Positions 38,062 to 44,000 of a DNA stretch of 64,000 nucleotides are shown piece by piece. The first letter of the stretch is position 1. The number at the start of each line of letters is the position of its first letter. The translations under genes were made by a program, and so were the position numbers. This DNA is from Mugil cephalus (taxonomy: Eukaryota > Chordata > Actinopteri > Mugiliformes > Mugilidae). The notes under the pieces were generated by a model, which was given only the letters and a program-made list of their open reading frames with translations, did no database searches and had not been told where the DNA came from. The DNA is taken from positions 25,789,501 to 25,853,500 of the forward strand of contig NC_061772.1 in assembly GCF_022458985.1 (NCBI RefSeq), in the 5' to 3' direction.

Positions 38062-41000
38062 ATGGCAGAGGACACACGACAGGACAAGAGGACCAGCTTC
38101 TCTGCCATAACGGAGCACAGCACCAACGGGATGGCGAGGACCTCCTCAGCTGTGGCCTCCGGCAAAAGTGGGGCTTCAAAGAAACTAGTCATCAAAAATT
38201 TCAAAGGTACTGTTGTTGTTGTTGTTGTTGTGGTTGTTCAGTTTTCTCCCCTTTTCTGCACCTAAAAAACCACATACACCTGAGTTATGTTTACAAAAAG
38301 AAACAAAACAGATGAATTGGGTTGTGCATGTGTGTTTAGCATAAATGTAAAGTTGTTGTCCAAACTGATCTGATGTGTGTTTAGATTTTGGTGATTGACA
38401 TTTGTCTTCTGATTCAGATTTTGTCAAACCTCCACAGTTTATGTCACAAGTTTAAATGCAATTTATCATATTCTACTATTATTAATAGTAATAATAATGA
38501 TAATAATACATTTTAGTTGTAGGTGCCCTTCAGGACGCTCAATATCACCACACAAAGTTGTTAAAATAAACAAACAATTAAAATTATACACATACATGTT
38601 TATGAAAACTTATAGGTACATAACATTTCTCTTCCAATAGACGTTACGATTTTGTCAATTCACGCCACAGGTTTACGTTACAAGTATAATTTATCAAATA
38701 ATAATAATAATAATAATACATTTTATTTGTAGGTGCCCTTCAGGACGCTCAATATCACCACACAAAGTTGTTAAAATATACAAACAATTAAAATTATACA
38801 CAAACAATATTCTAAAACTAAATTAAATTTAGTTAGTTGATCAATTCGTTTAAGTGGACGTCACTAATTAACATTTATCTTCCAATAGACGTTACGATTT
38901 TGTCAATTCACGCCACAGGTTTACGTTACAAGTATAATTTATCAAATAATAATAATAATAATAATAATAATACATTTTATTTGTAGGTGCCCTTCAGGAC
39001 GCTCAATATCACCACACAAAGTTGTTAAAATATACAAACAATTAAAATTATAAACATACATGTTTATAAAACTTATAGGTACATTAAAAAAATCCAAATT
39101 AAATTTAGTTAGTTGATCAATTCGTTCAAGCGGACGTCACTAATTAACATTTATCTTACAATAGACGTTATGATTTTGTCAATTCACGCCACAAGTTTAT
39201 GTTACAAGTATAATTTATCAAATAATCATAATAATATATTTATTTTTCGGGCACCTTTGACACAGGTCACTGTATAAATTCGTTAAAATAAAACTTTGCT
39301 AAGTTGATTAGTTGACATATCACATATCTATTTAGATTTACGTGATTGACATTTATCTTCTGATTAAATATTAGGATTTTGTCAATTGCCACGAGTTTAA
39401 ATATAATTTATCAGATACTAATAATAATAATACATTTTATTTTTAGGCGCTTTTCAGGACACTGAAGGGCACAATACAACATTATTAAAATAAAACATTA
39501 AAATTACACACATACATATTTATAAAGCATAAAGGTGCATAAATATCACATAAATCACATGTAATTTCCAAATGAAATCAGTTTGTGGTTCAAGGCGTCG
39601 CATATCTGTTTAGATTCTGGTTTGATGTCCTGCTTTTATATCACAGATCTGTCTTATCTAAGGGTTGAACATGAGGAAGTTACTTATTAACATTTATCGT
39701 CTGATAGATATTTTGATTTTGTCAGTCCTCCACAGTTCACACCACAACTTTACGTTACAAGTATAATTAATCAGATAATAATAATAATACATTTTATTTA
39801 TAGGCGCCTTTCAGGACAATTAAGATCACTTTACAAAATTGTTATTAAAGAATCTTATAATCTTATAATAATAATAAAAGCAATTAAAATTATACACACT
39901 GATATATTATCGTAGCAGATGTAGTATCTGTTTAATTGTTAATACCTATTATTAATGTTGGAATAATAATAATAAAAAAACATGTTTAAGTGACTTTGAA
40001 CACAGACACAAAATATCCTTACATAGAAAAATTATAAATGTTTGATCCAATCTTTTGTGTAATTGTGCGAAATTTAATTGATACAGACTGTAAATGGAAC
40101 CAGAAGAATTTTACGCACTTTCCACCTTGTTTAATGTTTATTTAGCAACGTACTCAAGAGTCCAAAGTGTGGATTCCAGATGTGCTACTCAGTGTTTTTG
40201 TGTATGATCTGTTTTACGTGCTCAGTACGTCTTCGTTTGTTCCTGCTCTCAGTGTGTAGATCCCGTAAACGAACCCTTGTTGCTGTTGTTTTCTAACAGA
40301 CAGGCCAAAACTAGCCGAGAACTACACAGAGGACACGTGGCTGAAGCTGCGAGATGCGGTGGGAGCCATCCAGAACAGCACCTCCATCAAGTACAACCTG
40401 GAAGAGCTCTATCAGGTTCGCTTTTTTTAAAGATAAACCTGAAGTTTGACTCGTCTTAGTTGTAAGATCCTGACGTAAATGTAGTAAATGGTTAACTTTA
40501 TTTGCACACAATAAACCAAACGGAGGCAAAAACAAACTCTTCACGCTTGATATAAGTTCGCAAAGTGGATTTTTGTATCTTACGTAAAGTAATTTTTAAA
40601 ATATGTCATAAATCCGTTGTATCCTGTGTTCTTGTCTCCTCTCCGTGGTTCTGCTGTACCATCTCGGTGAAGGCGGTGGAGAACCTGTGCTCATATAAAG
40701 TGTCCCCAACACTGTACAAGCAGCTTCGCCAAGTCTGTGAAGATCACGTGCAGGCTCAGATCCACCAGTTTAGAGAATATCCTTTTATTTATATATAAAG
40801 CGTTGTTTGTTTAACCCTTTACCTTTTCCACTGGGTCCTATATGTGACAGCAGGAGCTTTTCGAACCAATCAGAGCTTTATGCAACCTGCAATATGTCAT
40901 TAGAAAACTAATTTTGGACTGATTTCATTGATAAAAGCCAATAGAATCCGACAAAAAACAATTCAGACGAACGCAACAGGTCCTTATTTTTGTGCGGCAA

Positions 41001-44000
41001 CTTTGATTACTCAAGAACAATCTCAGCAATTCTGACTTTTGTGACAGAAACTTTAAAAAGGGAACAAGACCATCCACCAAAATGTTCAAGAACAGCATTC
41101 AACTTACTTTGGGTTCATCCTAAATAGGCGTTTTTATGGAAGAAGGCTGGACTGATGAGAGATTAAACTCAGGGAGACATGGACCAGCTGTAGGATGGTT
41201 TGTTGTTTGGTTGAACACATTCAATACAAGATTATCAATATAGGCGACCAAGCAAATTTGTCAAACTCCTGCACACTCTCTGGTCGTAAAGCTGCGTTTT
41301 TAAATATATTATTTACTTACTCCTCTTCGTCCCCGATGGGTCATGACTGTATTCACTGTATTCAGTCCTTGGCAGCACGTTGGGCCTCTCTCCTCATGAC
41401 TTTCAGGTTCATCTGATCCAGCTCTTGCGTCACAGTTGTGCACCAGGCGGTTTTGGGTTTTCTCTTACCTGGTGGCGTCCGCCTTTTAAGGATACGTCTC
41501 CTCCTCTCCTCTGTGACATGCAGGCTCCTTGTTTTTCTCGTACAGTTCATTGTTGGAGGTTTTGTTTGGGCCAAAGGATCTGGCACCTGAGGCATGAGTT
41601 GTGGGACACTTCCAGTCTCCTGAGCATCTTTCTTTTAAGGCTGTACTGCTTGTTCTGTGCTGTGAAAGCAGCCTGAGCCTTTAGCATCTTTGCCTTGACG
41701 TCTTGTGATGTTTACATGCACAGTTTTAATGGAGCTACGCTCTAAATTTGACTTTCTGATCGCGGTCCTTGTCCTAGTTTACATCCAGTCAAATAACTGA
41801 CGGGAACATGTCCTCTTCCTCCTCCTCCTTCACACTCGGTGGTTCTGTTTACTCGTATGTTTTTATTCCGGGGTCATGTCCACGCGTGTTGTCTAGTTTA
41901 ACTCCGATTAAGCACATACATAACAGGGAAAATCGATTTCCAATCACATTATCTGGGTGTCTTAATCGGATAAGAAGAACTCTGATTTTAGTCACGTTTA
42001 CGTGCACTTAAGTTGTCCAGTTAAAGTCGGATTAAGGCAATAATTTTGTTCTTTTCACATGCATGTAAACCTATCGACTGATGAGGTTTTCGCAGGTAGG
42101 TGAAGTCTTCCACATGCTCCAGTGGTTCTTCATTCAGGATCGGGGCTTGTGGAGGTGGAGTTTACACAGATCACTTGAGTTCTGGAGGCGTTGAGTCCAA
42201 CCAGTTTGTCAAAGTTGTTGAGTCTGTTAGTTTTAAACCTGCATGTTGTTGTGGTTGGTTGGTTTTATTTCCAATGGAGTCCCTTCTTTTTTTTTTTTTG
42301 CAGTTGTTTCTCTGAAGCTCAGTCAGTAGCTGTGTTTCCATTACCGTTTTTTCAAAATAAAAGCAAAATTTCTATAAAGTACTTTGTGCTTTGTACATGT
42401 TTCCATTGAAAAGTGTTTTGCGAATGAGCTGTAACTCTCGTCTTCACTTTGCGGCCAAGATGGACTTCAAATAAACCGGTCACATGACCCCCTGTTGTGA
42501 CGCCGGTGATGAGAAAATGCAAAAAAAAAGTAAACGTTTATATCGATACGTCTGAAAAAACCACCTCACGAGAGCGTAAAAGTGTTGTAGCTTTAGATAT
42601 TTCTTTTGAAATGTAGACGTCTCCTTCGCGATATTTAGGTTTTGTGAATTTCTAGGGGTTAATGAAACACAGCAAATGTTCAACAAGTTTTTTTTTTTTT
42701 ATCTTTTATATTTGCGAATCCTGCACAGTGGGCCAGACCGCAGAGTTTTATCCTTGTCACAGGAATACTTTTAGGTTTTATGTCATAACAGAATCGACGA
42801 CTTTCTCCTTAACGCGAAGCTCACAGAGTCTTTGGACAATCTTTCCTTCCTGAAGAGAATGAATCGTTGCTGGCAGGACCACTGTAGACAAACTGTAAGT
42901 TTGACAAATCTTCAATTTCCCAAAAAAAAGACCGAACACCTTAATTTATTCAATGTTTAAACTGTTCCTCTCTTTGCAGATAATGATCCGAAGTATCTTT
43001 CTCTTCCTGGATCGCACCTACGTGCTCCAGAACTCCCTGCTTCCCTCCATCTGGTAAACACACGCGCCGTTTCTAACCCGAGTTGTGTAGCTGGAAGTGT
43101 TTTTTTTTTTTTTTTTTTTGTTGAGGCTGACGTTTGTGCGTGTCGCTGCAGGGACACGGGGCTGGAGCTGTTTCGTACCCACATCGTGAGCGACGGCGCG
43201 GTTCAGAAGCGAACGGTCGAAGGCATTTTGGAGCAGATAGAGCTGGAGCGGAACGGAGAGACGGTCGATCGCAGTCTGCTGCGCAGCCTCCTGGGCATGC
43301 TGTCGGACCTGCAGGTACCTGAACGCACCCTTTTTTTTTTTTTTTTTTTTTTTTCTTTTGTTTGTTTTTTGGAGGTGGACTCGAGGTCAAAGCTTCTGAC
43401 TTGGCTTCGCTTTTTTTTTTTTTTTTTGTTCAGGTTTACAAAGACTCCTTCGAGGAGAGATTCTTGACCGAGACCAATCGGCTGTACGCAGCAGAGGGAC
43501 AGCGGCTGATGCAGGAGAGAGACGTGAGCGAGACCGTCACTAGATGTACACCGATCTGCCATAACATTATGACCACCTTCCTAATATCGTGTAGGTTTTA
43601 CTTGTTGCCTCCGGAACAGTTTTGACTCATCAGAGAATGGACATGGACCTTCTGATGGTGTCCTATGGACAACACAATGTTATTATTAGGTGGGGGGGGG
43701 CTGCCATCATTGCTGTTGGGTGGGGGGGCCTGGTCTGGTTTAGGTGCGGCATGAAGTTTCCCAGCAAAACGTTGAATTGTCAGAAAATGGTGAAAGTTTT
43801 TTTACTTTTCCTGTTAGTGGTCATAATGTTATGCCTGATCGGTGCGTGCCTCTTTCTCACCACCCTTCATACGCATAATTTGTTTATTTAATGTCCAGGT
43901 ACCCGAGTACCTGCACCACGTGGCTCGTCGGTTGGAGGAGGAGAACGATCGGATCATGAGCTACCTCGACCAGAGCACCCAGTAATTATTTCTAATTCTT

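Follow-up and report, generated by a model that had tools for sequence, protein, structure and literature searches.

A probable U12-type AT-AC intron in a cul4a gene of Mugil cephalus

The cul4a locus and its surroundings

A cullin gene lies on the forward strand of the window, by which the whole analysed stretch of 64 kb from Mugil cephalus is meant. Its exons were assembled into a coding model in which the only stop codon of the reading frame is found at the terminus. Alignment to chains of solved structures covered residues 9-758 with Cullin-4A (up to 1366 bits) and residues 33-758 with Cullin-4B (1370 bits), the Cullin-4B chains being N-terminally shortened. Introns were numbered as coding introns, with the 5' untranslated exons outside the model. 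GT-AG ends were found in 18 of the 19 introns and AT-AC ends in one, intron 3. The features of the gene that are used below are as follows.

38062..50319, forward strand: cul4a coding region, 20 coding exons, 758 aa, assembled and aligned to Cullin-4A and Cullin-4B chains
40673..40776, forward strand: coding exon 3, ending in CAG TTT AGA GA at the border (QFRE, phase 2)
40777..42824, forward strand: intron 3, 2048 nt, phase 2, AT-AC ends, U12-type by sequence
40777..40786, forward strand: U12-type 5' splice site ATATCCTTTT, with C at +5
42806..42813, forward strand: U12-type branch site TCCTTAAC, candidate branch A at 42811 or 42812
42823..42824, forward strand: 3' terminal AC, directly followed by AG at 42825-42826
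42825..42894, forward strand: coding exon 4, starting with A GAG TCT (ESLDNL); first letters AGAGTCTTTGGAC

Intron 1 of the same gene harbors a 276-bp unit in 2.4 copies (38621-39236).

The name cul4a, given to the gene in the original prediction, is likely to be right, although it is not certain. Its core of 719 residues gave 82.8% to CUL4A and 83.6% to CUL4B, and at the 110 positions at which CUL4A and CUL4B differ, 34 residues match CUL4A and 40 match CUL4B, so that the core protein does not separate the two. What favours cul4a over cul4b is a short, CUL4A-like N-terminus together with a LAMP1-like neighbour. The N-terminus aligns to CUL4A from CUL4A residue 7, a region in which the CUL4B chains are too short for a fair test. 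The neighbour is located downstream on the forward strand (59800-63400), and its first frame reached 50 bits with LAMP1 versus 35 with LAMP2; two of its frames were searched in Pfam and had no match, and its later exons were placed by eye. In human, CUL4A is presumably located beside LAMP1 and CUL4B beside LAMP2.

Several further features were observed elsewhere in the window. A 624-aa open frame on the reverse strand (12112-13983) ends in a C-type lectin domain (49.1 bits) and contains a 9-bp tandem array of about 72 copies (13252-13902), which encodes a PEI/PKTPE-rich repeat. On the same strand a probable multi-exon gene (25278-33984), which by its looks we take to be tgfbrap1, encodes a CNH domain in one frame and a Vps39_1 domain in another; its first frame matched no solved structure, and the frame at 25278-25865 gave no hit in Pfam. 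At 5097-9147, again on the reverse strand, one frame was F-box-like (21.7 bits, under the Pfam cut-off of 24.3) and another was without a Pfam match; these frames are presumably exons of fbxl3. Two long degenerate GGAA/AAGG arrays extend over 21663-22273 and 23266-25155, with a GC skew near 0.5. Scanning the 64-kb window against Rfam at the gathering threshold yielded no match.

Splicing signals of intron 3

At the join 40776/42825 the protein reads QFREESLDNL, which aligns without gaps to QFREDSLDSV in Cullin-4B and to PFREDSLDSV in Cullin-4A. In the numbering of PDB 2hye, this border corresponds to E123 within FRED. The original prediction had described a U12-like 5' end, a branch site 12 nt before the intron end and a terminal AC for this intron, and upon reading the sequence all of them were located where it had placed them. 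Its claim of a match to the U12 consensus was borne out as well: the 5' splice site agrees with RTATCCTT throughout (8 of 8), and in the branch site CTCCTTAAC 8 of 9 positions agree with TTCCTTRAC. From the branch A to the last intron base the distance is 13 nt if the first A (42811) is used and 12 nt if it is the second (42812). The stretch from the branch C to the 3' end, CGCGAAGCTCAC, contains purines and has no polypyrimidine tract, while pyrimidine-rich bases are present immediately 5' of the branch A; the last letters of the intron ahead of exon 4 are TTCTCCTTAACGCGAAGCTCAC. For U12-type introns an optimal branch distance of 11-13 nt and the lack of a polypyrimidine tract have been described (PMC3584512).

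In the other 18 cul4a introns, 3-6 of the 8 positions deviate from RTATCCTT, and the best branch matches reach 5-7 of 9. On a U2 donor matrix the donor of intron 3 scored -12.2, and the 18 GT-AG donors scored between 0.1 and 11.6. AT-AC ends are reported for 22% of the U12-type introns in zebrafish and for 12% each in Tetraodon and Takifugu (PMC7367187, Table 2). Intron 3 resembles AT-AC introns of the U12 type in general in its ends, 5' site, branch site and branch distance, and no departure from this class was noticed. Inside the intron no direct repeats were found; one imperfect inverted pair of 22 nt is 77% complementary.

RTATCCTTT occurs once on the two strands of the window, at 40777, compared to 1.42 on average over 100 shuffles; since this count is near the shuffled mean, the motif by itself is not rare. 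The 8-mer RTATCCTT is common as such, with 6 perfect matches on both strands of the window, and a scan for U12-like donors returned many sites with one mismatch. TCCTTAAC was found 22 times in the window with 2.87 expected, 18 of these occurrences being within the two GGAA/AAGG arrays, and a loose pattern of branch site plus YAC was found 19 times versus 17 by chance, which is no excess. As the motifs are not rare singly, the weight of the evidence lies in both signals standing exactly at the borders that the alignment dictates. The chance that RTATCCTTT starts precisely at the border demanded by the protein is about 1.42/128,000 for each position, or close to 1 in 10^5. For the branch motif to fall at any of some 11 suitable positions before the 3' end it is near 2.5 in 10^4 at the shuffled rate. 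By our own arithmetic, the joint chance of both signals is of the order of 10^-9 if independence is assumed.

Alternative borders and the choice of spliceosome

One alternative is an ordinary GT-AG intron, whose borders are shifted and were mis-drawn in the original prediction, and we regard it as very improbable. When both borders were slid together from -30 to +30, which preserves the length, none of the 61 pairs had GT-AG or GC-AG ends. The conserved protein resulted from two of them, AT-AC at 40777/42824 and TA-CA at 40778/42825. As both give an identical mRNA, the sequence alone leaves the border ambiguous by one base; AT-AC is the only protein-restoring pair with recognised intron ends among the 61. 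In addition, 240 GT-AG and GC-AG pairs (donors within 40690-40859, acceptors within 42740-42892) were subjected to local scoring against CUL4A. An open frame was kept by 39 of them, which speaks for a GT-AG reading, but with residues lost, added or changed, and the conserved protein was reproduced by none of the 240. All of them scored below AT-AC: the best pair, 40768/42791, reached 368 compared to 402 and swaps FRE for 11 other residues. The claim that AT-AC was the sole choice thus stands for the conserved residues and does not hold for an open frame as such. A different objection accepts the AT-AC ends and assigns the intron to the major spliceosome, as in the U2-type AT-AC introns of sodium channel genes. 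It has in its favour that AT-AC ends alone are no proof of the U12 pathway (PMC2831892). In those sodium channel introns, however, position +5 is G (PMC2831892), whereas intron 3 has C; moreover, its RTATCCTT is perfect, its branch site matches at 8 of 9 positions at a U12 distance, and the stretch between branch site and 3' end contains purines. An intron of this kind is therefore extremely improbable here.

The interpretation of intron 3 as a U12-type AT-AC intron is thus supported, and we put the probability that it is the U12-type AT-AC intron of vertebrate CUL4A at roughly 95%. What is shown directly are the signals in the sequence, the gene model and an exact join of the protein; removal of the intron by the minor spliceosome is the probable process behind them. 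In such a process the U11/U12 di-snRNP would recognise ATATCCTT at the 5' end and the branch site TCCTTAAC jointly, after which the minor spliceosome would remove the 2048 nt and join GA to A, giving a continuous QFRE-E-SLDNL. The predicted product of intron 3 retention meets a stop six residues after the glutamate of QFRE and has 128 aa; the frame would then end with 16 later exons still downstream, a fate of the transcript that we infer. Because of this early stop, production of full-length Cul4a would require the minor spliceosome.

The raw sequence indicates that in Mugil cephalus a gene encoding the scaffold of a ubiquitin ligase probably depends on the minor spliceosome. For annotators it provides exact intron borders, which a gene finder restricted to GT-AG would miss. 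Intron 3 of cul4a brings no new mechanism.

Human CUL4A and the twintron question

Human CUL4A is listed among 18 twintron genes, and the ancestral intron is of the U12 type in all 18 (Janice et al., 2013; PMC3564746). The arrangement is described there as conserved across vertebrates as a group, with four cases extending to lamprey and a few to amphibians, and Table 1 gives 789 aa for the U12 variant of CUL4A and 149 aa for the U2 variant. The U12 intron of CUL4A is described as nested within the U2 intron (Akinyi and Frilander, 2021; PMC8329584), and the gene is repeated as an example of competition in PMC10565666.

The intron described here shares with the human one the U12 type and, if the name cul4a is right, the gene. 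Most likely it represents an intron that has already been catalogued. The original prediction had left open whether the intron is catalogued in human CUL4A; a U12-type intron is indeed listed, by product lengths in the main text (PMC3564746), and the two introns are probably the same. That the position is the same in human is likely because the human U2 product is short (149 aa) and cul4a contains a single U12-like intron. A term search of the main texts of PMC2831892, PMC9501576, PMC6717393 and PMC10639083 gave no occurrence of terms beginning with cul4, and CUL4B was not found in the main texts of the U12 intron literature that was searched. Viral contigs were scanned with the 121-aa stretch across the join, which resulted in 14 pattern matches and no confirmed relative.

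While human CUL4A has a U2 competitor, only candidate sites for one are present in mullet cul4a. Intron 3 could be a twintron as well, with a GT-AG pair that competes for splicing by the major spliceosome and yields a short or altered product. This would be compatible with the U12 reading, and we consider it doubtful for the mullet. The two human variants of 789 and 149 aa argue for it, as does the outer placement of the human U2 intron. So does the AG directly after the terminal AC (42825-42826), which the U2 machinery could use in principle; paired with the AT donor it leads to a frame shift. Two GT sites in exon 3 scored 3.28 (40676) and 2.21 (40733) on the U2 donor matrix, near the two weakest real donors (0.14 and 2.24), but 16 of the 18 real donors score above the site at 40676 and 17 of 18 above that at 40733. 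The AG at 42826, with 53% pyrimidines upstream, likewise only equals the poorest real acceptor of the gene (range of the 18, 0.53-0.94). Among 24 donor-acceptor pairs that were tried, 11 are predicted to cut the product short, to 96-138 aa, and 13 stay in frame. A competing U2 pair in the region of exons 3 and 4 is therefore possible, with no strong sites pointing to one. We hold it just as tentatively that in the mullet lineage this is a simple U12 intron of the AT-AC type, with no U2 pair able to compete; if so, the CUL4A twintron would be a later addition or restricted to part of the vertebrates.

With regard to the two exons that flank the intron, each of them (40673-40776 and 42825-42894) is out of frame by itself, and their lengths add up to 174 nt. 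Skipping both is predicted to keep the frame and to result in a protein of 700 aa, and skipping either one in a truncation.
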